This document shows positions 3,201 through 30,767 of a DNA stretch of 64,000 bases, piece after piece; positions within the stretch are counted from its first letter, which is position 1; each line of letters opens with the position of its first letter. Position numbers and translations under genes: made by a program. The notes beneath the pieces are model-generated. The model saw only the letters and a list, made by a program, of their open reading frames with translations. It had not been told where the DNA came from and searched no databases. This DNA comes from Aquibaculum arenosum (GTDB lineage Bacteria > Pseudomonadota > Alphaproteobacteria > Kiloniellales > DSM-21159): NCBI RefSeq assembly GCF_029222965.1, contig NZ_JARHUD010000001.1, positions 124,001 to 188,000 on the forward strand. Reading direction: 5' to 3'.

Positions 3201-3316
3201 TCGGCGGCATGATCACCTCCATGATCCTGACCCTGGTGGTGATACCGGCGCTCTATTCGCTGGTTGAGCGGCCCCGGGCCCGCCGCAGGGCGCGTGCCCG
3301 TGAGGCCGAGGCCTGA
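248..3316 (+). CDS. RND family efflux pump, inner-membrane permease
   Basis: Proton-driven multidrug or solvent exporter of the AcrB/MexB superfamily, 1022 residues, the normal length for the family. A GTG start at 248 gives an N-terminus (MNLPEVSVRR) with the first membrane helix at about residues 12-32. The proton-relay aspartates lie in GIVVDDAIVVLENI (D399, D400) and the matching lysine in GLVTKNGILLVDL (K917). Two large periplasmic loops and two six-helix blocks are evident. It follows the adaptor fragment by four bases. It is only distantly similar to the second RND pump at 54191-57379, so this is not a recent duplication. Substrate cannot be read from the sequence. Confidence 0.93.
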   Translation: MNLPEVSVRRHVLAVMLSALIVLFGAISMRSIGVDRMPDVDLPVISVSTTYSGADAQIVDSSISEPMERGVNAVPGIRNIRSISVPGASIVTITFELGKDIDVAFNEVQARVSRLSTLPEDANNPVIEKVNSASQPVVWLSLTGDWTLQDLDTYARQVIRSQIRSVSGVGEIQYGGGEIRNIRVEVDPEKLAAHDVTVTELISALREEHVMMAGGFLIAGQREEQIQLDLEFHNPVALLDLLIAEQEGALITLGDVARVVDGTADRRRLSRFNGEPTVGLGVVKIPGANTAAIAAEIRERVETRIAPALPPGLELSIAYDESVFIQEQVEGLFLTIFLGVVLTALMIWFFLKNLRSTLIVSLSIPISLMASVAVIYFFGYTLNSVTMLAMLLLIGIVVDDAIVVLENIYRHRESEGRGAWDGAIAGSDEVFMAVIATSLALVSIFVSVLFLDAIIGRFFESFAVVVTFGILASSLVALTLVPMLCSRFLQVRKDHGRVYRALERIQAGMENSYRRLLALTLKARLPVLFLVALALALAFWPLRNIDAEFTPREDTGQFTVSVQAPLGSSLDYTATRLERVEELLQADETVATTFSALGLGRDGQVSSGVVFVTLADRDERDASQQEIMERLQPKLDQLAGVRAFASDIPFLGGERGEPLQFVLTGDDLGRVNELSSELLARLENDDALSSVDLELELDLPQVRLVIDRHRARSLGLSAEQIAETTNALMGGVNVARYNDWPGDGQRYNLRVKAIDGTFESPEDINKIYLRTGSGELVRLDTVAHFERRTGPAVIARYGMTYAAEFFATPAIGLGEAIERVEAHAADLLPLGYNLELVGEAEELRQTADAMLFVLLLAVALVYMVLASQFNSLIQPFFIMAAQPVALVGGIVGIWIGGYSLNIYSMIGLLLLMGLVTKNGILLVDLTNQYREKRDMGVDEALLAACPLRFRPVIMTSMTLVLAMVPAVLGLGAGADTTAPMAAAIIGGMITSMILTLVVIPALYSLVERPRARRRARAREAEA

Positions 3317-3323
3317 TGCCAGC

Positions 3324-4040
3324 CTAAAGTGCTCTCTTCCAATCGAAGGCCGTGGGCAGCCAGCGGCGCAGGTCTACGCTTTCGAGGGTGACACTGCAGT
3401 CGTAGCAAAGCACCTCGACACCGGCGCGCGCGGCAAGTTCAAGCGCTTCCGCGTAGGCCGGGTCGAGGTCGCCCGCCACGGTGAAGGCCTCGCAGTCCTC
3501 GCGCTGCACGATAAAGAGCAGCACCGCGCGGGCGCCTGCGCCAACCATGTCGACGAGTTCTTTCAGATGCCGGGTGCCGCGGGCGGTCACGCTGTCCGGA
3601 AAGGCGGCCATGCCGTCGCGCCGCAGGTGGACGTTCTTGATTTCCACATAGCAGGCGGGCCGCTCGGGCCCCTGCAGCAAGAGGTCGATACGGCTGCCCT
3701 GGCCGTAACGCACCTCGCGGCGAATCAGGTCATAGCCGGACAGTTCCGGCAGGGCGCCGGCGGCAAGAGCTTCCGGCACGATGCGGTTGGGATTGCTGGT
3801 GTTGACCGGGACGAGCACTCCGTCGGCGCGCACCATCTCCCAGGACCAGGCGAGCTTGCGCTTGGGGTCACTGTTCCCGGCCAGCCAGACCTCGGCCCCC
3901 TCGGCTAGCAGGCCCAGCATGGAGCCGGGGTTGGCGCAGTGGGCGGTGACCTCCCGGCCGTCATCCAGGCGCACATCGGCCAGAAAGCGCTTGTAGCGGC
4001 GCAGCAGTCGGCCGCGGTGGAGGGGGCTGGGCAAATCCAT
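3324..4040 (-). CDS. sfsA: SfsA family nucleic-acid-binding nuclease
   Basis: 238 residues, typical SfsA length. The family was named for sugar fermentation stimulation and later described as a DNA/RNA nuclease with a PD-(D/E)XK-like fold. Visible hallmarks are AHCANPGSMLGL near residue 35, SRIDLLLQG, YVEIKNVHL (the E-x-K catalytic strand) and FPDSVTARGTRHLKEL. The frame is open to 4184, but the ATG at 4038-4040 gives the standard N-terminus and avoids overlap with the divergent gene that starts at 4154. The 3' end faces the RND pump gene, eight bases away. No regulatory site was recognised in the short divergent spacer. Confidence 0.93.
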   Translation of the reverse strand: MDLPSPLHRGRLLRRYKRFLADVRLDDGREVTAHCANPGSMLGLLAEGAEVWLAGNSDPKRKLAWSWEMVRADGVLVPVNTSNPNRIVPEALAAGALPELSGYDLIRREVRYGQGSRIDLLLQGPERPACYVEIKNVHLRRDGMAAFPDSVTARGTRHLKELVDMVGAGARAVLLFIVQREDCEAFTVAGDLDPAYAEALELAARAGVEVLCYDCSVTLESVDLRRWLPTAFDWKRAL

Positions 4041-4153
4041 TGTCTCGCCTGATCTGGAAGGAGGGGCGCAAGGGGCAGGGTGATTGCGATGAGTGACACG
4101 CACACCCCTTTCACGTAAACCTGGAAGAGAAGCATTCGCAACTTTGGACAGCC

Positions 4154-5050
4154 ATGGACGCGTCCGTCGCCGTCTCCGACACACAGCCCTTCATTGCGGG
4201 ACACGAGGTTCTGCAGCCGGCCCGGCAGACCCTGCCGCTGGTGCTGTCTTCGCCGCACAGCGGGTCCCGCTACCCGTCGGAGTTCCTCGCAGCCTCCAGG
4301 CTCGACCCGCTTATGCTGCGCCGGTCGGAAGACAGCTTCGTGGATGAGATCTTCGCTTGCGCGCCGCAGCTGGGCGCGCCGCTCCTACGTGCGCACTTCC
4401 CGCGGGCCTTCGTCGATCCCAACCGCGAACCCTATGAACTCGATCCGGCGATGTTCGATGCGCCCTTGCCGGACTTCGCCAACACCCGCTCGCCCAGGGT
4501 GGCGGCGGGGCTGGGCACCATCGCGCGCGTTGTCGCCAATGGGGCGGAGATCTATCGCGGTAAGCTGGCGCTCTCCGAAGCGCTGGAGCGTATCCGGCTC
4601 TACTACTACCCCTATCATCGAAACCTGACCGAGCTGATCGACGCAACGCGCCGTCGCTTCGGCTACTGCATTTTGCTGGATTGCCACTCCATGCCCTCGA
4701 CCACAGGCAGCCGTGACTCGGGTGGTATGCAGCAAGCGGCGGATTTTGTGCTGGGCGACTGCTATGGCACGGCCTGTGCGCCGACGCTGACCGAGGCGGC
4801 GCTGGAGAACCTGCGCGGCGCTGGCTATCGGGTACGCCGCAATAAGCCCTATTCCGGCGGTTTCGTGACCCGCCACTACGGCCGGCCCAACGAAGGCGTG
4901 CATGCGCTGCAGATTGAGATTAATCGCGCCCTCTACATGGACGAGGCTGCCATTCGCCGCCGCCCAGGGCTCCGCCGTCTCGCCGGTCTGATGCCGGGAC
5001 TGCTGGAGGCCCTGGCGACCGTGGATTCCAAGGATCTGATTGCACAATGA
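4154..5050 (+). CDS. N-formylglutamate amidohydrolase family protein
   Basis: 298 residues. Family members hydrolyse N-formyl-L-glutamate to glutamate and formate, as in the last step of one histidine degradation route, or act on related N-acyl amino acids. Recognisable motifs are LVLSSPHSGSRYP near the N-terminus, FVDPNREPYELD, YYYPYHRNL, the metal-site stretch ILLDCHSMPS, and GGFVTRHYGRP followed by LQIEINRALYMDE. The stop overlaps the start of the acetyltransferase by four bases (ATGA at 5047-5050), so the two are translationally coupled. No hut genes are visible nearby, so a strict role in histidine breakdown is not established. Confidence 0.88.
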   Translation: MDASVAVSDTQPFIAGHEVLQPARQTLPLVLSSPHSGSRYPSEFLAASRLDPLMLRRSEDSFVDEIFACAPQLGAPLLRAHFPRAFVDPNREPYELDPAMFDAPLPDFANTRSPRVAAGLGTIARVVANGAEIYRGKLALSEALERIRLYYYPYHRNLTELIDATRRRFGYCILLDCHSMPSTTGSRDSGGMQQAADFVLGDCYGTACAPTLTEAALENLRGAGYRVRRNKPYSGGFVTRHYGRPNEGVHALQIEINRALYMDEAAIRRRPGLRRLAGLMPGLLEALATVDSKDLIAQ

Positions 5051-5598
5051 CCAGTGAATCTCCGGCACTGCCCGGTGTAGAGATTGGCAGTCCGCTGGAG
5101 GCCGACCTCGAACCCATGCGCCTTATCTACGCGCGTGAGGTCGAGCAGGGGACGGCCTCCTTCGAACTGGCGCCGCCGGATGGAGCGGATTTTGCCCGGC
5201 GCTGTCGCACGGTGCTCGACGCGGGCTTGCCCTGGCTTGTCGCCAAGCGGGACGAACAGGTGCTGGGCTATGCCTATGCCGGCGTCTATCGGCCGCGCCC
5301 GGCCTATCGTTTCACGGTCGAGGATTCGGTCTATGTGCATCCGGCGGCCCGCGGCCAGGGTCTTGGCCGGGCGCTGCTGGCCGCCGTGGTCGACGAAGCC
5401 ACCCGGGCCGGGCGGCGCCAGATGGTGGCGGTGGTGGGCGACAGTGCCAACACCGGCTCCATTGCCCTGCACGAGGCCCTGGGGTTTCGCCGGGTCGGTA
5501 CCTTCGAGAACGTCGGTTTCAAGTTCGGACGTTGGCTCGATACAGTGCTGTTGCAACGGCCGCTGGGCGAGGGGGCCAGCCGACCGCCCCAAGATTGA
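5047..5598 (+). CDS. GNAT N-acetyltransferase, phosphinothricin acetyltransferase-like
   Basis: 183 residues with one GNAT fold. The acetyl-CoA loop is visible as VYVHPAARGQGLGRALL (Q/R-x-x-G-x-G/A pattern), followed by NTGSIALHEALGFRRVGTF, which is diagnostic of the Pat/Bar/YncA branch that acetylates amino-group antimetabolites such as phosphinothricin or methionine sulfoximine. ATGA overlap with the N-formylglutamate amidohydrolase gene suggests coordinated production, and both proteins act on N-substituted glutamate-like compounds, which may explain the pairing (inference). The MgtC-like gene begins 38 bases downstream. Confidence 0.88.
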   Translation: MTSESPALPGVEIGSPLEADLEPMRLIYAREVEQGTASFELAPPDGADFARRCRTVLDAGLPWLVAKRDEQVLGYAYAGVYRPRPAYRFTVEDSVYVHPAARGQGLGRALLAAVVDEATRAGRRQMVAVVGDSANTGSIALHEALGFRRVGTFENVGFKFGRWLDTVLLQRPLGEGASRPPQD

Positions 5599-18050: not shown

Positions 18051-18845
18051 ATGAGGCCTGACGCGCCTGGGGCCGATGAGCCGGCCTGGGTGGGCGAGCG
18101 CCTGGAGCTGCCGCCGCGCCGGCCCACTCGCCGGGCCGATGCCATCGCGCAGCAGATCCGCGATCTGATCGCCGCCCACGGCCTGCGCCCCGGCGACCGC
18201 ATTCCCCAGGAGTGGCTGTCGGAGGCGCATCTGCAGGCGGCCAAGGGCACGGTGCGCGAGGCGCTGAAGGCGCTGAAGACCCAGGGGCTGATCAAGACCC
18301 GCACTGGCCCCGGCGGCGGCGTCTTCGTCTCGGCGCTCTCGGCCGGGCAGGCCATGGACCTGCTGAGCAACCTCTTCCTCTTCAGCCGGCCCAGCCTTTC
18401 CGAGATCTATGCCCTGCGCAAGCTGCTGGAGCCGGAGCTGGTGGCGGGGCTGGCCGGGCGGCTGGACGAGGCGGACTACGCCCATCTGCAGGAGACCATC
18501 CGCCTCTACGACCACGCCCCCGCCGATGCGGAGGAGGAGTTCCAGCAGCGCCTCTCGGAGCTGGATTTCCACTCGGTGCTGGCCGGTTTCTCGGACAACC
18601 GCCTGCTGACCTTCGCCTGCGTCTTCCTGCACCGCCTGTTGCGCGAGATGGCGGTCTGCCGCGCCATCTACGCCACCCCGAACCCGCAGCTGCGCGAGAC
18701 GGCGCTGAACTACCAGGTGCGCCTCATGCGCCTGCTCAAGGTGGGCGACGCCGAGGGCGCCCGCAGCCTCATGGCCGAGCACATGGCCGAGGCCGAACGC
18801 TACATGCTCGCCCGCGCCGCCATCCGCCAGCCGGAGGGCGGGTGA
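18051..18845 (+). CDS. GntR family transcriptional regulator (FCD type)
   Basis: 264 residues. An N-terminal winged helix (AIAQQIRDLIAAHGLRPGDRI, then AKGTVREALKALKTQGLIKT and GGGVFV) is followed by an all-helical FCD ligand domain (ALRKLLEPELVAGLAGRLD, LDFHSVLAGFSDN). These regulators usually repress catabolic operons until a carboxylic or amino acid inducer binds. It starts ten bases after the ATPase and closes the operon, so it likely controls the importer and the divergent hydrolase. The last twelve codons, beginning LARAAIRQPEGG, lie inside a duplicated segment that recurs at the end of the hicB-like gene 630 bases later. Confidence 0.9.
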   Translation: MRPDAPGADEPAWVGERLELPPRRPTRRADAIAQQIRDLIAAHGLRPGDRIPQEWLSEAHLQAAKGTVREALKALKTQGLIKTRTGPGGGVFVSALSAGQAMDLLSNLFLFSRPSLSEIYALRKLLEPELVAGLAGRLDEADYAHLQETIRLYDHAPADAEEEFQQRLSELDFHSVLAGFSDNRLLTFACVFLHRLLREMAVCRAIYATPNPQLRETALNYQVRLMRLLKVGDAEGARSLMAEHMAEAERYMLARAAIRQPEGG

Positions 18846-19020
18846 GGGGGGATACCGTCTCTCGATGTGCCGCGAGCGACCGCTCTTTTCACCCCCTCGT
18901 CATTGCAAGCGACCCCCCTTACTTCCCCCGTCATTGCGAGCGACCAACGGGAGCGCGGCAATCAAGGGCCACGGGCGGCCGCCCTGGATTGCCGCGTCGG
19001 CTTCGCCTCCTCGCAATAAC
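18805..19020 (+). repeat. Direct repeat, copy A (gntR tail plus ATTGC repeat cluster)
   Basis: About 215 bases that recur almost unchanged at 19435-19652, exactly 630 bases downstream. By eye there are about six mismatches over the first 195 bases. The copy begins inside gntR, twelve codons before its stop, and continues through intergenic DNA made of short inverted repeats with ATTGCGAGCG at one end and GCGCGGCAAT at the other, then a second pair in the opposite sense. Confidence 0.9.
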
Positions 19021-19127: not shown

Positions 19128-19475
19128 ATGAACACGATGGCATACAAGGGCTATAGCGCCCGCATCGAGTATGACGACGAGGACGGTATTTTCTTCGGCA
19201 AGATTGCTGGAATCGCCGACGGCGTGGGCTTTCACGCCGATAATGTCGCCGATCTCAGGGCGGCCTTTCACGAGGCCGTGGAGGATTACCTGGAAACCTG
19301 CGCCAAGGTCGGCAAGCCGCCGCAGAAGCCCTATTCCGGCAGGGTCATGTTCCGCGTCGATCCCGAGGTGCATCGCAAGGCGGCGCTGGCGGCGGAGCTG
19401 TCGGGTAAGAGCTTGAACCAGTGGGCCGAAGAGGTGCTCGCCCGAGCCGCCATCCGCCAGCCGGAGGGCGGGTGA
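19128..19475 (+). CDS. HicB-like antitoxin, apparently orphan
   Basis: 115 residues. The N-terminal part is the HicB partial RNase H-like fold (MAYKGYSARIEYDDEDGIFFG, then GFHADNVADLRAAFHEAVEDYLE). The C-terminal part is a ribbon-helix-helix-like DNA-binding segment (GRVMFRVDPEVHRKAALAAELSGKSLNQW). HicB normally neutralises the HicA mRNA interferase and represses the pair. No HicA-like frame of about 60 residues is visible on either side. The final residues LARAAIRQPEGG are identical to the end of the upstream GntR protein because the 3' end lies in direct repeat copy B. It may be a solitary regulator or a relic. Confidence 0.82.
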   Translation: MNTMAYKGYSARIEYDDEDGIFFGKIAGIADGVGFHADNVADLRAAFHEAVEDYLETCAKVGKPPQKPYSGRVMFRVDPEVHRKAALAAELSGKSLNQWAEEVLARAAIRQPEGG

Positions 19476-19652
19476 CGGGGGATACCGTCTCTCGATGTGC
19501 CGCGAGCGACCGCTCTTTTCTCCCCCTCGTCATTGCAAGCGACCCCCCTTACTTCCCCCGTCATTGCGAGCGACCAGCGGGAGCGCGGCAATCTAGGGCC
19601 ACGGGCGACCGCCCTGGATTGCCGCGTCGGCCTGTCGGCCTCCTCGCAATGA
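19435..19652 (+). repeat. Direct repeat, copy B (hicB tail plus ATTGC repeat cluster)
   Basis: Second copy of the segment at 18805. It starts at the same codon phase within hicB as copy A does within gntR, so both proteins receive the same last residues. The two copies diverge near the end, where copy A reads CGGCTTCGCCTCC and copy B reads CGGCCTGTCGGCCTCC. The duplicated block brackets hicB. Confidence 0.9.
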
Positions 19653-20856: not shown

Positions 20857-20978
20857 GCAGCCGGGAGGCAGGATGGAGGAGGGACAGTGGCAGGATGCCG
20901 CAGTCTATGCCCCTTCCCGAACCATTGCGAGCCCTGTCCCCGCGAGCCTTGCCCGTGGAGGCCGATAGGCCCCCCACC

Positions 20979-21110
20979 TCGTCATTGCGAGGAAGCGAAG
21001 CCGACGCGGCAATCCAGGGCCACGAGTGGCCGCCCTGGCTGCCACGCGCCCTGCCGGGCGCTCGCAGTGATGTGCCGCGCTCCCGTTGGTCGCTCGCAAT
21101 GACGGTGGGG
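20979..21110. repeat. ATTGC-type interspersed repeat cluster, third locus
   Basis: The intergenic stretch 20857-21160 has no gene but contains GTCATTGCGAGGAAGCGAAG through GACGCGGCAATCCAGGGCC and, facing it, CGCGCTCCCGTTGGTCGCTC followed by GCAATGACGG. These are the same building blocks as in copies A and B, arranged head to head with CGCCCTGG in the middle. Repeats of this ATTGCGAG...GCAATCC type are scattered through many proteobacterial genomes. Confidence 0.8.
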
Positions 21111-21160
21111 AAAGGGCGGGGCGCTTGCACTGCCGACGAAAAAGAGGACAGCGCGCCGGC

Positions 21161-22636
21161 TCAGGTCAGATGTGCGGCCAGGTCGGGCGCTTTAGGCACC
21201 GCCTGTTCGGCGGAGATGGGGAAGGGCCGCTCGCCCGGGTCCTGTGGCATGAAGGGGCGTCGACCCGCCGCCAGGCACTGGCCGTGCCAGGCCCGCCAGG
21301 CCTCCCAGTATTCCAGGCGGAAGGGCGTGGTGCCGCTGCCCTGAATGCCGGTGCTATGGTCTGTCATCAGCGACCCCGGGCGTTCCGCACCCAGCGCGAG
21401 CGGCTTGCGCAGCGGCGCGCCCGCCTCTCGGCCGAAGACCAGAGCGAGGCGGGCGAGGAACTCGCTGTCGGCGCCGGTGCGCACCTCGTCGAAAGCGCCG
21501 GCGCGGTTGAGCACAGCCTCTCGGCGGAAGAGGATCGAGGAGAGGTTGGCGCGGAGCAGCGGGTGGCACTGCCGCGCCACCACCGCGCCGTCATCGCGGA
21601 TGCGCAGCCAGTAGGACCAGCTGAAGACCCGGCCCGGGTCCTCTTGCAGCCAGTCCAGTTGCTGTTCGATCTTGCGCGGATGCGACCAGTCGTCCGAGTC
21701 ATGACAGGTGACGAAGGCGCCGCGCGCCAGGTGCCGCAAAGCGAGGTTCTTGGCCACATAGGTGCCCACGTTGCGCGGCAGGCGATGATAGTGCACCCGG
21801 GCGTCACGCTCGCGCAGCGCCGCGACCACCGCGCCCAGACCGTCGTCGCTGGCATCGTCCATGACGATGATTTCCAGGTTGCGATGGCTCTGTGCCAAGA
21901 GGGATTCGATGGCCGGGCCGATGCGCTCCTTGGTGCGGAAGGCCGTCATGATGACCGAGACCAGCGGGCGCTCCCCCGGCAGCACGGGCACCTGCGCCCT
22001 GGCGTTGCGGGCGTTGAGTGCTTCCGCTTCATCCCTGCGTTCGAGCGATTCCAGTTGGTGGTGCGCGAAGTAGCGGTTGATCTGCGCCAGCGCCGCGGCC
22101 TCGGGGGTTGCGCTGGCCGGTAGTTGGCCTGCGAGCAGTAGGGTAGCACGATGCAGCGGCAGCTCGGGCCACCGAGCCTCCTCTTCGTCCGATAGCCTGC
22201 CGAGCACCGCGGCGGCCTCCGGCAGGTGCCCGAGCCCGGTCAGCAGTGCGATCTGCAGGTCACGGCACTCGGCAACGGCCGCGGCATCCGCCTCTTGCAG
22301 GCGCCGCAGAGCCAACTCGGGCGCGTGCGGCGCCAGTGCGGTGACGATCTGGCGCAGCTTGCCGGCCGGCAGGCCCTGCAGCCAGGCCTGCGCCGCCTCG
22401 CCCTTGCCGAGTGCCGCCGCGCAGACCGCAGCGGCCAGACGCGCCCGCCAACGCGCCGGCACGCCCTCCCGCTCCGCGCGCTCATGAACGCTGCGATAGA
22501 GCCCGAGCTTGTACTGCGCCCAGTAGGAGGGCCCCCGGGAGAACAGCGCCTGGTCGCGGTGCACCGCCAGGGCCTCGCTGTAACGGTGCTTGCGCATCGC
22601 GCGGTGGAAGCCGAGCGTTGCTGTCAGAGCCTTCAT
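21161..22636 (-). CDS. Glycosyltransferase family 2 with helical N-terminal region
   Basis: 491 residues. Residues 1-220 are helical, alanine- and leucine-rich and TPR-like. A GT2 (GT-A fold) domain starts near 226 with PLVSVIMTAFRT, continues with LEIIVMDDASDDG, and has the metal-binding HDSDDWSHPRKIEQ. It ends in a family-specific motif, TGIQ then FRLEYWEAWRAWHG. This last motif and the DxDDWSH motif also occur in the AT-rich gene at 24419, so the two are relatives. No membrane helix is present, so it would work on the cytosolic face. The divergent ugd gene suggests a role in surface polysaccharide synthesis. Confidence 0.88.
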   Translation of the reverse strand: MKALTATLGFHRAMRKHRYSEALAVHRDQALFSRGPSYWAQYKLGLYRSVHERAEREGVPARWRARLAAAVCAAALGKGEAAQAWLQGLPAGKLRQIVTALAPHAPELALRRLQEADAAAVAECRDLQIALLTGLGHLPEAAAVLGRLSDEEEARWPELPLHRATLLLAGQLPASATPEAAALAQINRYFAHHQLESLERRDEAEALNARNARAQVPVLPGERPLVSVIMTAFRTKERIGPAIESLLAQSHRNLEIIVMDDASDDGLGAVVAALRERDARVHYHRLPRNVGTYVAKNLALRHLARGAFVTCHDSDDWSHPRKIEQQLDWLQEDPGRVFSWSYWLRIRDDGAVVARQCHPLLRANLSSILFRREAVLNRAGAFDEVRTGADSEFLARLALVFGREAGAPLRKPLALGAERPGSLMTDHSTGIQGSGTTPFRLEYWEAWRAWHGQCLAAGRRPFMPQDPGERPFPISAEQAVPKAPDLAAHLT

Positions 22637-23000
22637 GGGGCTTTCCTGTGACTGGGTGCGGGCGGAGTTTCTAGCAATACCAGAGGATACTCATGGGGTT
22701 GGTCACCGGCGATGCCAGTGTCGAGCTATCGGCGGCGGCATCTTAGAGACTCCGAGGCGAGGCGAAAGAGTGGCAGACGGCCGAAACTTGATCCCCGATG
22801 CGCGAAGTGGCGCATGGGCCCGCATTGCAATGGCTGGATAGTTAGGCAATAACGACGCCTTAAGGTCGACGGAGTGGTGTCGGCGTGCGGGGAGTTCGCT
22901 GTCGAATTCCAAGGGGCTGCGTGCGCATCTTCCGTAGGCCCTTCGGGACCATGTCGTCACCATGATACCATCACTTCATTGGCTTTCTAAGCGGGGCAGC
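22637..23000. other. Divergent intergenic region between the glycosyltransferase and ugd
   Basis: 364 bases without a gene. It must hold the promoters of both flanking genes. I see a small hairpin (ATGCGC at 22798-22803 with GCGCAT at 22810-22815) but no convincing operator, riboswitch or sigma factor boxes. Base composition falls from the left side to the right, towards the AT-rich island. Confidence 0.5.
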
Positions 23001-24368
23001 ATGCAGCTTAAGGTAACGATTGTCGGAGCTGGTTACGTAGGACTGGTTTCGGCGGCATGTTTCGCACACCTGGGCACCAGTGTTACCTGCGTTGACCGCG
23101 ATCGATCGCGGATTGATCGGCTGGAGCAGGGCGAATCCCCGATCTTCGAGGAAGGGCTCGATGAACTGATCCTCGAGGGGCAGCAGCGCGGCCTCCTCCA
23201 CTTTTCGACCGACTTGGCAGCCAAGGTAGCCGACGCAGATCTCATTTTCATTGCAGTTGGCACGCCCAGCAGCAAGGGCGATGGCTACCCCGACATGGCT
23301 CAGGTTGAAGCGGTTGCCAGAGCGATCGCGCCAGTCTTGTCCGGCTATACGGTTCTGGTGACCAAGTCCACGGTTCCCGCTGGAACTGGCCGATGGCTAG
23401 AGACGCTCTTGCGCGAACTTCGGCCTGATGCCGATGTCGATGTTGCCTCCAATCCCGAATTTCTGCGCGAAGGCTGTGCCATTCGCGATTTTCTTGAACC
23501 CGACCGTGTGGTTCTGGGCGCCGACAACGAGAGGGCGCGCGACCACCTGCAGGCTCTCTATCGGCCCTTGGCGGATCGGGCGGTGCCGGTGGTTATGACG
23601 ACGCGTGAAACCGCTGAACTGATCAAGTATGCGGGCAATGCCTTTTTGGCCACCAAGATCACCTTCATCAATGAGATGGCGGACCTCTGCGAGAAGTTCG
23701 ATGCCGATGTCGAAGTGCTCGCCCGGGGCATCGGGCTCGATCGCCGGATCGGCCCACTGTTTCTCAAGGCCGGCCCGGGCTATGGCGGGTCATGCTTTCC
23801 GAAGGACACGCGCGGACTGATCACCATCGCCGAGCGCGCCGGCGCGCCCACGCGGCTTGTCGAAGCGGTGAACTCGATTAATGAGGACCGGAAGGCCTCG
23901 ATGGCCGAGCGTATTCGCGGCCTGCTCGGTGGGTCGCTTGAGGGCATCACCCTCGCTGTCCTAGGAGTGACCTTCAAGGCCGGGACGGACGATATGCGCG
24001 AAGCGCCCAGTCTGGATATTCTCCCGCGCTTGCAGGCAGCCGGTGCGGCCATACAAGCCTACGATCCCGCAGGGATGGAGCATGCAGAGAACTTGCTTCC
24101 GGGTGTTTCGTGGCACGAAGACGCTTATGACGCGGCGACCGGTGCCGATGCGCTCGTGATCCTGACCGAATGGTCACAGTTCAAGGCGCTGGACCTACTC
24201 CGGATGCGGGAGACACTGGGCCAGCCCATGGTGATCGATTTGAGGAACCTCTATGAGCCCCAAGTGATGCGCGATGCGGGATTTGTTTACCATTCTGTTG
24301 GCAGAGGGTCGCGTACTAAGTTTATTGAGCGATCGCTTGGGGTAGTCTCGTCGGATGCTGCGGAATAA
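23001..24368 (+). CDS. ugd: UDP-glucose 6-dehydrogenase
   Basis: 455 residues. It oxidises UDP-glucose twice to UDP-glucuronate with NAD, providing the uronic acid donor for polysaccharides. The Rossmann motif is VTIVGAGYVGLVSAACFAHL, the active-site cysteine is in GPGYGGSCFPKDTRG (about residue 265), and the central AGNAFLATKITFINEMADLC and NPEFLREG motifs are present. ATG at 23001 is preferred over one 39 bases upstream because it gives the conserved start MQLKVTIVGAG. Codon use is intermediate between the GC-rich surroundings and the AT-rich genes that follow 50 bases later. Confidence 0.96.
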   Translation: MQLKVTIVGAGYVGLVSAACFAHLGTSVTCVDRDRSRIDRLEQGESPIFEEGLDELILEGQQRGLLHFSTDLAAKVADADLIFIAVGTPSSKGDGYPDMAQVEAVARAIAPVLSGYTVLVTKSTVPAGTGRWLETLLRELRPDADVDVASNPEFLREGCAIRDFLEPDRVVLGADNERARDHLQALYRPLADRAVPVVMTTRETAELIKYAGNAFLATKITFINEMADLCEKFDADVEVLARGIGLDRRIGPLFLKAGPGYGGSCFPKDTRGLITIAERAGAPTRLVEAVNSINEDRKASMAERIRGLLGGSLEGITLAVLGVTFKAGTDDMREAPSLDILPRLQAAGAAIQAYDPAGMEHAENLLPGVSWHEDAYDAATGADALVILTEWSQFKALDLLRMRETLGQPMVIDLRNLYEPQVMRDAGFVYHSVGRGSRTKFIERSLGVVSSDAAE

Positions 24369-24418
24369 ACTATATATACCCACAAGAATATCTCTTCTCT
24401 AAATAGCAAGGTAAACTC

Positions 24419-26926
24419 ATGCTTAGGGCCAATAAACAATTAACCAATTTTATTGAAAAAACATTAAATGCGTTACTAAACAAAAAAACGCAACGGAAAG
24501 AAAGTAATAAAAAAAAGCAAAGAAGATTAAGGTCGACGTATTTCGTTAAGAGGTTATGGGGTGGGTACTCTAGTATTGCGATACCAGAGTTAGAGAGCAT
24601 AATTAGGAGCCAAGATGTTATCGAAGAAGATAAAGTTAACGCCTTGTGGGAGCTTTTCAGATGGCATTACAGTAGAGAGAACTATCATAAATGCTTAAGC
24701 ATACTTGATCAATTGGATTTCTTAGACGGCTGTCTATGTGAAAAGTATAAAAAATGGCACTTGCTGACCTTAATAAAGACCGGTCACGATGAAAAATCAG
24801 TAAATGTATTAAACAATTTACTTGCAAGAAACACTGTTTCCCCAGAGATTTTGCTGCTTGCATCAACGGTTTCCGGAGGGCCCGAGTTATCACATAATGG
24901 GTCTACTAGTAGACTTGATTTGATAAACAACGCTTTACTTCGATACAACATAGGACGAATAAAACTTATCGACAGCAATAAAAATTTAGATTTTCATAAT
25001 ATAACGTCGGAATCAAAATATGAAACCGTTTATGGTGGGGATAAGGTTTCAGTCATTGTCCCAGCTTATAATGCAGAAAATACAATCGCTACTGCCATAC
25101 ACAGTATTTTAAATCAATCTTGGCACAATATTGAAATTATTGTTGTCGATGACAGTAGCTCCGATGCAACATCAAGTGTTGTGCGATCGATTGCCGCCGT
25201 CGATTCTAGGATAAAGCTTGTCCGAAACACTTCAAATGGAGGCGCCTATTCGGCTCGAAATCGCGGATTGAGATCGGCGACTGGAGAATTCGTCATGGTG
25301 CATGATGCCGATGATTGGTCCCATGCTGACAAAATTCTTGAACAAGTACAATTTATTAACAGTCATGCGGGTGTTGTTGCAGTTCTGTCTCAATGGGTCC
25401 GTGTGACGAAGGATCTGAGGATCGTGGGCCCTTGGCGGCCAAAGGGATCAATTTATGATGTAAATCTCTCATCCTTAATGGTTCGGCGAAGTGTATTCGA
25501 TCAGGTAGGTGAGTGGGATGAGGTACGGGTTAACGCCGACGCCGAGTTTGTATGGCGACTGAGGGCGTATTATGGTAAGGCGGCTGTGGGGAAAATAACA
25601 GATCCGCCACTATTATCGTTGTCATTAACACAAGATACTTCACTTACCAGAATGGGTACCACCGGAATTCAAACCCTTTCCTTCGGGCCTCGAGCACAAT
25701 ATCGAGATGCCTACCGGTTCTGGCACCGCAAAATCGCGGAAGGTGATGGCGCCAAACACTCGAACAAGCTTCGTCCTTTTCCGATTCCTCCATGTATAGC
25801 AAGCAAAGAGAAGCCAACACGTTTTGATATCGTATTCGTCTGTGATTTTGCCCTGAAAGGGGGGGCTTTTGCTTCCACTTTGCAATACATAAGGGCGGCC
25901 GAAGCAGCTGGACTGAAGGTTGCAGTATGGCATTGGCGAAAGTTTGACTTAGATCCTGTCAGTCCAATAAATCCAAAGCTTTATGAGCTGGCGACAGAAA
26001 AGCGGATACCGACATTGACTTCGGGTGATCTAGCTGAGACTGATTGTGTAATTATTGGGTATCCAGCAATCCTGAGAACCCTTCCGGATGCTATTCCAGA
26101 TATCAGAACCAATATGGTCTGCGTAATAGTAAATCAATTTGCCTCAAGATTATTAAGCGGCGAGGACGAGCAATATAATCCCATAGTGGCAAGAGAAAAC
26201 GTCCAACGCCTGTTTGGCAAGGATGGGGTTTGGATACCAATCTCTCATTGGGTCCATAGGCTAATGGAGCAGGATGAACGTTACCCAGTTCCGTATTCGT
26301 CCCCGTGGCATCCTCTTATAGACTCCTCGACTATAAAGGTCAGAAAGAATTTGTGGCGTAGAGAGCAGCGCATCAGACCAACTATAGGACGCCATGGTCG
26401 TGATGCATACACAAAGTGGCCAACATCTCCCGACGCTATTATGATGGCATACGGGGTTGAGAAAGATTGGAACGTGCAGTTTCTAGGAGGAGCTAGATTC
26501 GCTATAAACAAGCTCGGTTATCAGCCCGACAACTGGAGGGTTTATGGCTTTGACGAGATTGATATTTCTGATTTTCTTTTGGATCTTGATTTCTTCGTTC
26601 ACTATCCTCACGAGGAGTACATTGAGGAATTTGGCCGTGCTGTTCTAGAGGCAATGGCGCATGGAATTCCTGTCATTTTGCCACCACAGTTTGAAGAAAC
26701 TTTTGGAGGCGGGGCCCTTTATGCTGAACCAGAAGCGCTTGGGAAAGTTATTGAGACACTATGGGAGGATCAAAGTAAGTATACTAATAGAGTGGAGGCC
26801 GGATGGAAATTTATAAGTGAAAATTGTGAATCCGCAAGTTTCATGAGAAGGTTTATAGCATTAAAAAAGGACGGATCGGATAAGGGCACAGTGCGTGATA
26901 GATGGCCACACGTATCATCAATGTGA
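24419..26926 (+). CDS. Two-domain glycosyltransferase (GT2 plus GT4-like)
   Basis: 835 residues. Residues 1-205 are lysine-rich and helical. A GT2 domain begins near 208 (KVSVIVPAYNAE, then IEIIVVDDSSSDATS, and HDADDWSHADKILEQ near 295). It closes with TGIQTLSFGPRAQYRDAYRF, the same family motif as the gene at 21161. From about residue 470 a second domain with a GT-B layout follows, ending in EEFGRAVLEAMAHGIPVIL, the E-x7-E motif of GT4 enzymes. Two linked transferases suggest synthesis of a repeating disaccharide. The gene is markedly AT-rich, unlike its left-hand neighbours, consistent with lateral transfer. Donor and acceptor sugars are unknown; UDP-glucuronate from ugd is a plausible donor. 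Confidence 0.85.
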   Translation: MLRANKQLTNFIEKTLNALLNKKTQRKESNKKKQRRLRSTYFVKRLWGGYSSIAIPELESIIRSQDVIEEDKVNALWELFRWHYSRENYHKCLSILDQLDFLDGCLCEKYKKWHLLTLIKTGHDEKSVNVLNNLLARNTVSPEILLLASTVSGGPELSHNGSTSRLDLINNALLRYNIGRIKLIDSNKNLDFHNITSESKYETVYGGDKVSVIVPAYNAENTIATAIHSILNQSWHNIEIIVVDDSSSDATSSVVRSIAAVDSRIKLVRNTSNGGAYSARNRGLRSATGEFVMVHDADDWSHADKILEQVQFINSHAGVVAVLSQWVRVTKDLRIVGPWRPKGSIYDVNLSSLMVRRSVFDQVGEWDEVRVNADAEFVWRLRAYYGKAAVGKITDPPLLSLSLTQDTSLTRMGTTGIQTLSFGPRAQYRDAYRFWHRKIAEGDGAKHSNKLRPFPIPPCIASKEKPTRFDIVFVCDFALKGGAFASTLQYIRAAEAAGLKVAVWHWRKFDLDPVSPINPKLYELATEKRIPTLTSGDLAETDCVIIGYPAILRTLPDAIPDIRTNMVCVIVNQFASRLLSGEDEQYNPIVARENVQRLFGKDGVWIPISHWVHRLMEQDERYPVPYSSPWHPLIDSSTIKVRKNLWRREQRIRPTIGRHGRDAYTKWPTSPDAIMMAYGVEKDWNVQFLGGARFAINKLGYQPDNWRVYGFDEIDISDFLLDLDFFVHYPHEEYIEEFGRAVLEAMAHGIPVILPPQFEETFGGGALYAEPEALGKVIETLWEDQSKYTNRVEAGWKFISENCESASFMRRFIALKKDGSDKGTVRDRWPHVSSM

Positions 26927-26956
26927 GTAGCATATTTGCATTTTGGGGATGGGTAA

Positions 26957-27883
26957 ATGAGCAACGTAAAACCGAAGAAACGTGTGTTTAAGTTTCACGA
27001 TTTATATTTTAAGGAAAACGGCGCGCATTATAGAAAATACTTGCCAAGTTACGTAAGGACGGCTCTTCCTAAAATCGGAAAGAAAAAATATGGCAAAGAG
27101 TTTCTTTCTATATTGAACTGTGATCTTCCAAAAACCTACTGTCTTGGCTTGCCCCCGAGAAGGGTCATGGAAGTTTGTGCTGATATGGAAGAGGTTGTAA
27201 TTAAACCGGATGAAGGAAAGAACAGCTGGGGTGTATTTGGCCTAAAAAAGATCGGAAACCATAGATGGTATAACATACAAGAGGATAAGGAGTACTCTAC
27301 AGATTCAATAGTGGATCTGATGTCTGCTGTATCAGATCAGGGTAACGTCTCCCCCACTTGGATGGCCGAAGAACTATTGATTCCACCAAACGGCGCATAT
27401 CGGCCAGTGGAAGACATTAAAATATACGCGTTTTATGGGCAAATAGCGCTCGTTCTACACAAGGAGAATATTGTCAGAGGGGGTAGTAATGACGCGAAAT
27501 ACCGCTGGTATAACAGTCATTGGACAGAAGTAAAAACAGGAAAGTACGAAAGAAAAAGGAGTGACATACTTGCGCCCCCCCCAGATTACTGTGCGTACAA
27601 CAGCATTGCTAAGAGAGTGTCATCATACATATTAAAGCCGTTTTATAGAATAGACATTCTTAATACAAACAGAGGGCCAATGGTAGGGGAGTTAACGCCG
27701 TGGCCAGGCCACCCAAAGGGATTTAGCCCCGAAGTATCTATTGACTTGGCGTCTATGTGGTTTAGGGCACAGCACCGACTGATCCATGATGTTTCATTCG
27801 AATTAGTAGATGAACAATTAAATGCGTATAAAAAATTAAACCAATTGCTGCTAAATAATGACGAAAGCGTAGGAAAATGCTAG
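26957..27883 (+). CDS. TupA-like ATP-grasp ligase
   Basis: 308 residues. The layout fits ATP-grasp enzymes of the TupA/sugar-transfer-associated group: EVVIKPDEGKNSWGVFGLKK for nucleotide binding, TWMAEELLIPP, then EDIKIYAFYGQIALVLHK, and near the C-terminus FYRIDILNTNRGPMVGELTP, where the acidic and asparagine-like metal ligands normally lie. TupA of an alkaliphilic Bacillus takes part in making teichuronopeptide, a polymer of glucuronate and glutamate. Placement 30 bases after the double glycosyltransferase and near ugd fits ligation of an amino compound to a uronic acid polymer (inference). AT-rich, no signal peptide. Confidence 0.75.
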   Translation: MSNVKPKKRVFKFHDLYFKENGAHYRKYLPSYVRTALPKIGKKKYGKEFLSILNCDLPKTYCLGLPPRRVMEVCADMEEVVIKPDEGKNSWGVFGLKKIGNHRWYNIQEDKEYSTDSIVDLMSAVSDQGNVSPTWMAEELLIPPNGAYRPVEDIKIYAFYGQIALVLHKENIVRGGSNDAKYRWYNSHWTEVKTGKYERKRSDILAPPPDYCAYNSIAKRVSSYILKPFYRIDILNTNRGPMVGELTPWPGHPKGFSPEVSIDLASMWFRAQHRLIHDVSFELVDEQLNAYKKLNQLLLNNDESVGKC

Positions 27884-28098
27884 AATACGGCTAACAAAAA
27901 AAACGGTGAGAATGTCAGCGTTCCTGAATGAGTGCTGCGCGCATCCTGGATAGGGATTCGATACCTGCAGTACTTTATGAGGCGCGGAAAATAACACATT
28001 ATAATAAGCGATAACGAAATGGAAATAAAATACATAGCGAAAGTATTATAAGCATGAAAATGGCTGTAAATTTGTAGTTTTGTGGAAGCGCGAGTGAT

Positions 28099-29376
28099 AT
28101 GAAGAGAGGCAATTCCAGTATGAACAGTATCAATATTAGCAGCTCTTCATTGTGCGTTTTTTCTCTAGCAAACGAGGCGTATCGAAGGGGACTCGAGGTA
28201 ACGTTTCTTTGTGAAAAGAAAGTGCAAGAATTATGTGAAAAAAAGCAAATGAAATATAACCCAAAATACAATAGAGTGGGATTTGTTTTTGTAATCAGCG
28301 ACGGCATTATAAATATCACTTTCTCAAAAACGAAAGTGCTGTGCAGTAATATTATAAAATCCGACGAGACGTGGTTTGGTTCATTGTTCGGGAGAAAGAG
28401 ATATCACAGTGCGGGGTTTTACCAAGGAAAGAAAGAACAAAAACGTGCTTTGAGTAACCTTAAAATCGATACAGCAAGATACCGCGTTGTGGATAAAGCC
28501 CGAAAGAGCTTTCCCAATGACCTCAATTCTATAGTAGATGTACTAGGGTTTCCCTTAGTGGCTAAACCTGTAGCGGGGAGCATGGGGAAGGGTGTTCATG
28601 TCAATATAAACACCAGGGAAACGCTGTTGCTGTCCATCAATGAGATCAAAGCAACCCAATGCATTGTAGAGGAATATGTGCAAGGCGTAGAGTATCGTGT
28701 TTATACAGTGAATGGTGTTCCTGTTGGAGCGGTAAGGAGAACCCCACCTTACGTTATCGGGGATGGGGAAAAAACGATAAATGAACTATTGATTCAAGCT
28801 AATAATAAGAAGAGAAGGATGAAGCGCCCAATTATAAATATAGAACAGGCAATAATAAACTTAACAAAAAGAGGATTAACGTTATATTCGATACCGGACA
28901 AAGATATTTATATTAATTTGGGCGATGTGTTAGGGAGGTCATCTGGCGGGTATGTTATTCGTGATGATAGCATACTGAGTAGCACTCACTTAAAACAAAT
29001 ATGCAGAAAAATAGATAAGCTATATGACGGAATAATTTTAGGAATTGACCTTATCAATGACAAAGACAGGTATGTTGTAATAGAGATTAATGACAGACCG
29101 CAATTAAGCACTATTTTGGATCCAGATTATGGTGAGGCGTGCGATATTTCACGGTTAGTTATAAAAAAATTATTTCCTTCATCCAGGAGGGTGCGGAAAA
29201 GAAAAAACAGCGGTGATTTTATTCGTTTTTGGAACTTAATAAAGGCATCTAAAAATGATTTACTGTGGTCACCATTGAACTACCAAGATCGAATCTTGCA
29301 TGCGGCCAATACTCGGAGAAAATTATTCAATTATAAGAAATCCATTCTGGGCGCGATTGGCATCAAAGTCATTTGA
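28099..29376 (+). CDS. ATP-grasp ligase, cyanophycin-synthetase-like
   Basis: 425 residues. The ATP-grasp core runs from about residue 115 to 360. FPLVAKPVAGSMGKGVHVNI is the nucleotide-binding strand and loop, IVEEYVQGVEYRVYTVNG and PPYVIGDGEKTINELL match the cyanophycin synthetase/GshF branch, and VVIEINDRPQLSTI holds metal ligands. Such enzymes join a carboxylate to an amine through an acyl phosphate. A second ATG at 28120 follows a better AGAGAGG site and may be the true start, giving 418 residues. The 3' end overlaps that of the convergent ligase by 54 bases. AT-rich. The two proteins share the same overall layout and are probably paralogues. Substrates unknown. Confidence 0.8.
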   Translation: MKRGNSSMNSINISSSSLCVFSLANEAYRRGLEVTFLCEKKVQELCEKKQMKYNPKYNRVGFVFVISDGIINITFSKTKVLCSNIIKSDETWFGSLFGRKRYHSAGFYQGKKEQKRALSNLKIDTARYRVVDKARKSFPNDLNSIVDVLGFPLVAKPVAGSMGKGVHVNINTRETLLLSINEIKATQCIVEEYVQGVEYRVYTVNGVPVGAVRRTPPYVIGDGEKTINELLIQANNKKRRMKRPIINIEQAIINLTKRGLTLYSIPDKDIYINLGDVLGRSSGGYVIRDDSILSSTHLKQICRKIDKLYDGIILGIDLINDKDRYVVIEINDRPQLSTILDPDYGEACDISRLVIKKLFPSSRRVRKRKNSGDFIRFWNLIKASKNDLLWSPLNYQDRILHAANTRRKLFNYKKSILGAIGIKVI

Positions 29377-30663
29377 ATGGACCTCGATATTATAAACTTT
29401 TGCGGACTTCGGACCCGTTTTGCAGAGTGTTAAAACGCTCTCAACGGCGCTTCTCGAGCCAGAAAGTACCGCCTGAATGCTCCCATCTTCGGCGTTTCTA
29501 ACCCATCCGTCTACCGCGTGAACGTGCGCTTGTCGACGGAGCCAATGTCGGAACCCTACGCCTTGAACTCTGCCGGTTACGCGAATCTTGTGGTCGTGAC
29601 GAGGACTGGGGGATTTAACCGCGGTCTCGGGTAGAAGAGACTCGATCAGCGCGCCTGCGACGTCCCGTGCTTGGCCGTATGATGGGAAATGGTGGAGTGA
29701 AATATCAGGATTCGAATTAACTTCGATGACAGCCCACGCTTGTTCGTTTGCGGGTGTAGTGATATCTTTAGCTATGATATCTATTCCTGCATGGAATAGG
29801 TCAGGGATGGATTGGCGGGCTTTTATCGCTATTTCACAAAAACTTGGGTGAATGATGTTCGTTATGTCTTCACTTTCTCCACCAGCGCTAATATTGGCTA
29901 TAGGATGAAGCTCCACACGCTGCCCCGCATGTGGAATGGTTTCCGGTGTTAATCCAGTTTTCTGCATATGAGAGAGCATAACGTCAGTCAGTTTGAGCGG
30001 GTTTTTGCCAATGTACGGGATTGATTCCCTTTCGCGAGCTTTCAGAGTCACCAATTGTCGAATGGTATGCACGCCATCGCCCGTTACCGAGGCAGGGTAG
30101 CGTCGCGCGGCAGCTACAACTTTGTCTTGAATGACAAAAACACGATGGTCGCCGCCTTCTATCATCGGTTCTACAATAATTGTTTTTCCGTTCTTTGCTG
30201 CAACTTGCCAGCTCAAATCGAAATCTTCGATTTTTGTAATGCCTACGGAAACACCCCGACCGCTATGTGCCGATAGCGGTTTTATGACGACAGGCACATC
30301 CAAACTGCACGCATACTTCCATGCTTGTTTTTTCTCGCTCACAGGAAATTTTCTTCCCAGCGGAACCGTAACGCCAGAACGATTCAAAAGTTGCTTCGTT
30401 GCGTGCTTGTTATCGGTAACGAATCTCGCAAAAACAGATGTTCTATTGCTCATTCGTTGTGTAAAATGAATGCAATTGTTGTTGAAACGCACCGTGTTAA
30501 GTTGGCCGCTCATTGATACCACGCTACAGCCGCGTTTCCAGGCAGCATGTGTAAGAACTTCTGTTTGATTCTTGCGTGAAAATAGCTGCCATCCTGGCAC
30601 TTCCCAAAAGCTTGCGGGATGGAGAATGCGCTCTAACGAAGAACGTAACGCTGATTCTGACAT
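29323..30663 (-). CDS. ATP-grasp ligase fused to an acylphosphatase domain
   Basis: 446 residues. Residues about 85-350 form an ATP-grasp ligase of the cyanophycin synthetase type (VPVVIKPLSAHSGRGVSVGI, EPMIEGGDHRVFVIQDK, TGDGVHTIRQL, AVIEVNSNPDISLHHFPSYG). Residues about 358-446 are a complete acylphosphatase: VTGRVQGVGFRHWLRR then GWVRNAEDGSI. Its catalytic arginine (about R372) and asparagine (about N390) are 18 residues apart, as R23 and N41 are in muscle acylphosphatase. The ATG at 30661-30663 with AGGGAGGTG upstream is preferred over a GTG twelve bases earlier. Composition is intermediate. It faces the preceding ligase gene. The fusion suggests hydrolysis of stray acyl-phosphate intermediates, which is an inference. 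Confidence 0.85.
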   Translation of the reverse strand: MSESALRSSLERILHPASFWEVPGWQLFSRKNQTEVLTHAAWKRGCSVVSMSGQLNTVRFNNNCIHFTQRMSNRTSVFARFVTDNKHATKQLLNRSGVTVPLGRKFPVSEKKQAWKYACSLDVPVVIKPLSAHSGRGVSVGITKIEDFDLSWQVAAKNGKTIIVEPMIEGGDHRVFVIQDKVVAAARRYPASVTGDGVHTIRQLVTLKARERESIPYIGKNPLKLTDVMLSHMQKTGLTPETIPHAGQRVELHPIANISAGGESEDITNIIHPSFCEIAIKARQSIPDLFHAGIDIIAKDITTPANEQAWAVIEVNSNPDISLHHFPSYGQARDVAGALIESLLPETAVKSPSPRHDHKIRVTGRVQGVGFRHWLRRQAHVHAVDGWVRNAEDGSIQAVLSGSRSAVESVLTLCKTGPKSAKVYNIEVHSNDFDANRAQNGFLIIE

Positions 30664-30767
30664 TTCTCTCTTCACCTCCCTACTTACTTTCTAGCAAGAA
30701 ATATATGCCGCTATTCAAGTGGTATACATAGGGCCATATACGCTCATCAGCACCTTACCTCAGCCGC

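Follow-up and report, generated by a model that had tools for sequence, protein, structure and literature searches.

The locus described here occupies positions 21161 to 30675 of a 64,000-nucleotide stretch of the Aquibaculum arenosum genome (contig NZ_JARHUD010000001.1, positions 124,001 to 188,000), which as a whole is called the window. A sequence-only reading had proposed this locus as a gene cluster for a uronic acid polymer decorated with amino acids or peptides. Six open reading frames (ORFs) lie where that reading had placed them, and profile matches confirmed that each encodes the domain assigned to it, well above chance. The features are as follows.

21161-22636, minus strand: GT2 glycosyltransferase P0004 (PF00535, 2.5e-25)
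22962-24368, plus strand: UDP-glucose 6-dehydrogenase ugd, P0006 (PF03721, 1.2e-59; PF00984; PF03720)
24419-26926, plus strand: GT2-GT4 double glycosyltransferase P0005 (PF00535, 6.5e-34; PF00534, 4e-06)
26957-27883, plus strand: TupA-like ATP-grasp amidoligase P0001 (PF14305, 1.3e-13, 51.5 bits)
28099-29376, plus strand: cyanophycin-synthetase-like ATP-grasp ligase without a Mur domain, P0002 (RimK PF08443, 40.4 bits)
29323-30675, minus strand: cyanophycin-synthetase-like ATP-grasp ligase with an acylphosphatase, P0003 (PRK14016, 255.4 bits; PF00708, 77 bits)
29356-29589, minus strand: acylphosphatase domain of P0003, residues 363-440 (PF00708, 1.4e-21)
about 24400-30700, no strand: low-GC island with P0005, P0001, P0002 and P0003 (GC profile; GC at third codon positions, GC3)

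The double assignment of P0005 is firm for its GT2 half and narrow for its GT4 half, whose 26.9 bits stand against a cut-off of 26.4. The C-terminal acylphosphatase domain of the last ligase, P0003, had been overlooked; this gene starts with either ATG at 30663 or GTG at 30675. Intergenic gaps amount to 50 bases between ugd and P0005, 30 bases between P0005 and P0001, and 215 bases between P0001 and P0002, and the convergent genes P0002 and P0003 overlap by 54 bases at their 3' ends. The flanking genes that were scanned are ordinary high-GC genes for an MFS transporter, a TetR-type regulator, a C-N hydrolase and an M20 peptidase.

Base composition is uneven along the locus. GC content in 500-base windows is 0.36-0.50 across 24500-30499, 0.51-0.64 over ugd and 0.62-0.74 outside, with 64% for the whole window. 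The GC3 of the last four genes is 0.39-0.44, compared with 0.67 in ugd, 0.85 in P0004 and 0.90-0.94 in three flanking genes, and the composition of P0004 is near that of the host. Among 385 genomes of the class, P0001 was matched only in its own genome; P0003 had no match spanning both domains outside its own genome among the matches listed for 143 genomes; and the single genome available from the same genus gave no match to P0005 and only a weak one to a regulator neighbouring the island. Because of their low GC and GC3, and because P0001, P0003 and P0005 are unmatched in the relatives searched, the four low-GC genes were most likely acquired. A GroEL encoded in the window shares 81-83% identity with proteins of Bosea, Mesorhizobium and Rhizobium type, which suits an alphaproteobacterial host. 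Single-protein scans found no relative of P0001 in a collection of genome contigs and none of P0002 or P0007 in viral contigs. Two other readings were considered and rejected: as a defence system, since PADLOC gave 0 matches for six proteins, and as phage genes, since PHROGs gave only glycosyltransferase, acylphosphatase, S6-modification-type and unnamed matches for five proteins. Structure predictions were too poor for use, with mean pLDDT values of 45.7 and 38.3. That the island was not found in the relatives searched and is of mixed composition would also suit a decaying remnant without function. However, all frames are open, the glycosyltransferase, ATP-grasp and acylphosphatase domains still give matches, and most conserved residues are kept, so that we find such decay hardly credible.

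Judged by their relatives, the two glycosyltransferases, which are homologous (33% identity over 372 aa), resemble capsule enzymes, and P0004 appears to belong to a capsule-type family. The two plasmid matches that cover more than 80% of P0004 (96% and 94% covered, 39% identity) both lie in Kps-type loci. The order of genes on E. coli pAL.H8 is nucleotide-sugar dehydrogenase, glycosyltransferase, KpsC-like and KpsS-like, and the S. meliloti pA relative has KpsC-, KpsM-, KpsT- and KpsE-like genes beside it; the latter record is unannotated, and these neighbours were found by tblastn with the Kps-like proteins of the A. arenosum genome. Labels such as KpsC and KpsS derive from PF05159, ABC-2, ABC and Poly_export matches together with mutual similarity. 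For P0005, three plasmid relatives cover at least 74% of the protein at 30-34% identity. The relatives from Paenibacillus polymyxa and Roseivivax marinus each have a nucleotide-sugar dehydrogenase gene as their neighbour. In Jannaschia sp. M317 such a gene lies 8 kb upstream, with KpsM-, KpsT- and KpsE-like genes near the P0005 relative and, directly downstream of it, an ATP-grasp gene (PF13535) that has no BLAST match to the three ligases of our locus. The E. coli and Jannaschia dehydrogenases are nearest to UDP-glucose dehydrogenase models (best for E. coli: UDP-glucose 6-dehydrogenase). P0006 itself is over the cut-off of TIGR03026 at 436 bits; its best equivalog, TuaD, scores 488.7 bits, below the cut-off of 700, and its best plasmid match is from Azospirillum at 60% identity. 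P0006 is likely the source of UDP-glucuronate. We consider it highly probable that the glycan part of the locus is a uronate capsule locus. The genome also encodes a second UDP-glucose dehydrogenase of another, PRK15057-like subfamily (L120:7047-8219), which shares 67-69% identity with those of Jannaschia and E. coli.

By its profile score, P0001 is identified as a divergent member of PF14305, with 51.5 bits over a curated cut-off of 25, while other members of the class reach 225. Seventeen alignment columns are shared by at least 85% of 13 alphaproteobacterial PF14305 members; P0001 agrees in 12 of them, including E138, D153, K155, R231, D233, E245 and T247, and differs in five. P0001 had no plasmid match, and no PDB match below an E-value of 0.9. 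The family was matched in 25 of the 385 class genomes, its own included, and 23 are over the cut-off. A recurring association of the ligases with ugd, proposed as a check by the sequence-only reading, was seen for TupA genes in a small part: ugd stands in 2 of 20 alphaproteobacterial TupA neighbourhoods and a cyanophycin-like ligase in none (20 stretches from 19 genomes, covering 24 of the 30 matches outside the own genome, several of which end at contig ends). A Pfam scan of 142 of the 147 ORFs called in these neighbourhoods, the five longest being left out, gave 20 TupA, 7 GT2 and 5 GT4-type matches.

A precedent for the chemistry exists in Campylobacter jejuni. According to the accessible part of PMC11800379, Cj1438 carries a TupA-like domain at its C-terminus that attaches serinol phosphate or ethanolamine phosphate to capsule glucuronate at the C6-carboxylate, the GT2 at the N-terminus of the protein uses the amidated acceptor exclusively, and the phosphatase Cj1435 is an amine-donor gene of this capsule. 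Because Cj1438 is already reported to amidate capsule glucuronate, the idea of uronate amidation is not new. The combination that had been taken as new, which in the sequence-only reading included three ligases, has precedents in part, in this system and in the alphaproteobacterial stretch L071, where TupA, Ugd, GT2s, WecG and Wzy_C occur together; among glycan clusters of alphaproteobacteria, ours is not the only one with a TupA gene. It is fairly probable that P0001 amidates a uronate.

In C. jejuni, capsule export depends on Kps genes. The sequence-only reading had noted that flippase, polymerase and export genes are missing from the window, and among the window genes scanned, which cover part of the window, there is no initiating transferase, Wzx or Wzy. 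KpsC- and KpsS-like proteins are encoded on contigs C12 and C6, and another stretch of C12 holds, in one run, an ABC-2 permease, an ABC ATPase, a KpsE-like protein and a Poly_export protein; the KpsE-like protein, which has no Pfam match, resembles genes in the Sinorhizobium and Jannaschia loci. Contig C24 carries Wza-, Wzc- and Wzx-like genes. Since these Kps-like, Wza-, Wzc- and Wzx-like genes are encoded elsewhere in the genome, the export pieces thought missing are present but unlinked. Instead of a Kps capsule, the island might modify an O-antigen or exopolysaccharide that leaves through the Wzx-type machinery of C24, an arrangement for which L071, with TupA beside Ugd and Wzy_C, offers a parallel. 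The relatives of P0004 and P0005, however, lie in Kps-type loci, and the scanned window genes lack the three functions just named; we regard the Wzx route as quite improbable. At L125:2611-11258, the Kps-like export run adjoins genes for a PAPS (phosphoadenosine phosphosulfate) reductase and for CysN/CysC-type sulfate activation.

P0002 and P0003 share an ATP-grasp domain with the cyanophycin synthetase CphA1. Unlike CphA1, neither gave a profile match for a Mur-ligase half, and P0003 has an acylphosphatase instead. Their ATP-grasp parts score 122.5 (P0002) and 242.1 bits (P0003) against 850 for TIGR02068, the PRK14016 score of P0003 compares with a cut-off of 877, and P0002 matches PDB entry 7ta5 (1.1e-21) and P0003 entry 7lgn (9.6e-47). 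With the model for sugar-transfer-associated ATP-grasp proteins, ATPgrasp_ST (PF14397, cut-off 31.4), P0003 scores 33.1 bits, less than the 44.5 bits it reaches with RimK, and P0002 stays below the cut-off at 17.9. Conserved columns, 44 in number, were defined from 37 long cyanophycin-synthetase-like proteins selected solely on similarity and a frame length of 788-1228 aa; P0002 keeps 26 and P0003 38, including the KP-motif lysine and the E and N of the ExN motif. The acylphosphatase domain retains the VQGVGFR and GWVRN motifs, whose arginine and asparagine we take to be catalytic.

In a sample of 398 genomes of the phylum, own included, where no more than four candidates were scored in each genome, P0002 had no full-length relative or orthologue, and nearly all of its matches cover the ATP-grasp part only, mostly in longer frames. 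A profile search of this sample (E <= 1e-25, the same limit of four candidates per genome) found the ATP-grasp-acylphosphatase fusion in 3 genomes, own included, and it is present in 2 of the 48 genomes of the class of genome G466. A pattern scan of an 84,980-species collection located the fusion in two Magnetococcales metagenome-assembled genomes, DH2_bin6 and nW5bin3; because the scan caught 2 of the 4 fused copies in these two, the count must be read as at least two genomes. The Magnetococcales proteins are fusions like P0003 (38-47% identity over aligned pieces), but they have two or three ATP-grasp domains per chain. A phylogenetic tree groups P0003 with the Magnetococcales domains next to the acylphosphatase with a support of only 92/71, the P0003 domain used in it starting about 11 residues too early and ending 12 short; P0002 forms a long branch whose place is unsure. 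No paper on the fusion was found in a search that left most subscription papers outside, and it may be described by Iyer et al. (2009) in their survey of amidoligases.

The genes around the relatives of P0003 were examined as well. In Magnetococcales, neighbours include a pyridoxal phosphate (PLP) decarboxylase (stretches L172 and L174), ArgJ (L172, with a look-alike recognized by eye in L174) and an Asp/Glu racemase, probably MurI (L171); the ligase of L174 has no acylphosphatase match. In L173, a 1608-aa ORF (485-5311) with PGA_cap (CapA) and MurF-like Mur-ligase domains lies about 50 bases upstream of the fusion genes on the same strand. The glycosyltransferases and ugd of the window had no tblastn match in these four stretches, and a GT2-looking ORF was recognized by eye about 6 kb from the ligase in L171. 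The best plasmid relative of P0003 is the C-terminal part of a 1660-aa protein of Agrobacterium tumefaciens pAt (42% identity; L231:10074-15056), which contains one YheCD-type and two cyanophycin-like ATP-grasp domains and adjoins a type I secretion system and a BapA-like protein. From these settings we therefore infer that P0003-type ligases would act in peptide ligation rather than on a sugar substrate.

The glycan unit might accordingly consist only of ugd, the glycosyltransferases and the TupA-like ligase, with P0002 and P0003 as separate cargo whose cytoplasmic product is a small peptide or a storage compound. The convergent orientation of P0003 and the 215-base gap before P0002 would fit such a division, as would the absence of cyanophycin-like ligases from all 20 TupA neighbourhoods and the company of the closest P0003 relatives, multi-ATP-grasp proteins that stand by a MurI-like racemase, ArgJ, PLP decarboxylase or type I secretion and not by glycosyltransferases of this kind. 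Yet the two ligases share one low-GC island and overlap at their 3' ends, and one P0003 relative adjoins a CapA/Mur-ligase gene, an enzyme of surface-polypeptide type; on balance we hold the separation to be somewhat unlikely. The regions L172:7274-15494 and L174:7501-15641 are alike in carrying an ArgJ-type gene, a tandem ATP-grasp ligase, a PLP decarboxylase and an ORF of 739 or 840 aa with no Pfam or NCBIfam match, a gene run that has the look of a peptide or amine pathway not yet described.

We interpret the locus, with a probability of about 0.5, as a serotype-type island of an ABC-transporter (Kps) capsule in which a uronate is amide-linked to amino compounds and the ligases make the amino part. 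Ugd would provide UDP-glucuronate, from which the GT2 and GT2-GT4 proteins would polymerize a glucuronate-containing chain in the cytoplasm. P0001 would use ATP to activate the C6-carboxylate of chain glucuronate and couple it to an amine, in the manner of Cj1438 from C. jejuni. P0002 and P0003 would work on the amino side, where they would add amino acids to an activated carboxylate and in this way make or lengthen an amino-acid or peptide portion, and the acylphosphatase domain of P0003 would discard unused acyl-phosphate. The product would be primed by KpsC/KpsS and exported by KpsM/T/E/D, encoded elsewhere in the genome. The domains, the composition, the homologues in capsule loci and the presence of export genes are established by the analysis; every substrate in this scheme, the way the ligases share the work and the export route are what we infer. 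That the two cyanophycin-like ligases act on the same product has, in our estimate, slightly less than an even chance; this weight, like those given above to the capsule locus and to amidation by P0001, is a judgement and was not computed. A further possibility, which we consider unlikely, is a glycan-peptide copolymer capsule, in which P0001 would anchor an amino acid on glucuronate, P0002 and P0003 would grow a ribosome-independent peptide, and the acylphosphatase would edit wrong or stalled acyl-phosphates.

The amidated Kps capsule is favoured by the resemblance of the glycosyltransferases and ugd to part of a uronic-acid capsule locus, by the TupA-like gene 30 bases behind the GT2-GT4 gene, and by the PGA_cap and Mur-ligase gene beside one P0003 relative. 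To this extent the decorated uronic acid polymer proposed from the sequence is supported. Several observations weigh against it. No second occurrence of the whole cluster was found, P0002 is without a detected orthologue, P0003 lies on the opposite strand, and its relatives in two Magnetococcales genomes and on the Agrobacterium plasmid are not in glycan loci, which agrees in part with what the sequence-only reading had named as damaging to its proposal, namely ligase homologues mostly away from glycan genes. The Kps-like genes are unlinked to the island, and the genome has the Wza-, Wzc- and Wzx-like set besides. P0001 is likened to Cj1438 by family and description, not by sequence comparison. 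No amine-donor gene is among the island genes, the rest of the genome not having been searched for one; C. jejuni, whose amine-donor genes also include a PLP enzyme, needs one.

The neighbourhoods of P0005 relatives raise further doubts. The Paenibacillus and Roseivivax dehydrogenases are nearest to UDP-N-acetylmannosamine (ManNAc) and UDP-N-acetylglucosamine (GlcNAc) dehydrogenases; what the loci have in common is therefore a uronic acid, not glucuronate itself. We examined 11 of the 12 listed relatives, leaving out the unannotated H33, and viewed the first three with 12 kb flanks and the others with 7 kb. An annotated dehydrogenase lies within 7 kb in 3 of the 11 and is absent at that distance from 7, compared with 0 of 7 weak glycosyltransferase matches serving as a rough control, numbers too few to exclude chance. 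The fourth dehydrogenase, that of Jannaschia at 8 kb, was left out of this equal-window count because most flanks were 7 kb. Plasmid gene tables are incomplete, one of the seven dehydrogenase-free neighbourhoods having nearly all genes called hypothetical, and the seven controls were hand-picked from 14 spread rows, three of them reaching the record end before 7 kb.

Among known systems, the C. jejuni HS:2 capsule is the closest in outline. As in that type of amidated-glucuronate capsule, Ugd, a polymerizing-type GT2 and a TupA-like ligase are together at the locus, and Kps export and priming genes are present in the genome, here unlinked to the island. In the HS:2 capsule, GT2 and the TupA-like ligase are coupled in one protein, Cj1438, and the capsule contains glucuronate (PMC11800379, accessible part), whereas in A. 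arenosum the GT2-GT4 and TupA genes are separate, two cyanophycin-like ligases are added, and the island has no amine-donor genes of its own. The teichuronopeptide of Bacillus halodurans C-125 (tupA), composed of poly-gamma-glutamate and polyglucuronate according to the accessible part of PMC8153356, is similar in its TupA-family ligase, its glucuronate supply and a possible amino-acid polymer part. It differs in that our host is Gram-negative and carries the extra cyanophycin-synthetase-type ligases; no polyglutamate synthase gene, a teichuronopeptide trait, was found in the locus or the flanking genes scanned, the rest of the genome not having been searched. Amidated capsule glucuronate is thus already known, and what is new here is its combination with two cyanophycin-type ligases and an ATP-grasp-acylphosphatase fusion. 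If the interpretation is correct, the amidated-glucuronate capsule, known with small amino alcohols (PMC11800379, accessible part), would be extended by alphaproteobacteria that attach amino acids or peptides. An enzyme type would also come forward in which an ATP-grasp ligase carries an acylphosphatase of its own, and its possible editing role is testable with one purified protein.

Close to the left end of the locus, a HicB-like gene is flanked by a direct repeat of 208 nt, whose copies at 18805-19012 and 19435-19642 share 95% identity, and further partial and inverted copies extend up to 21136 (one at 20977-21136).

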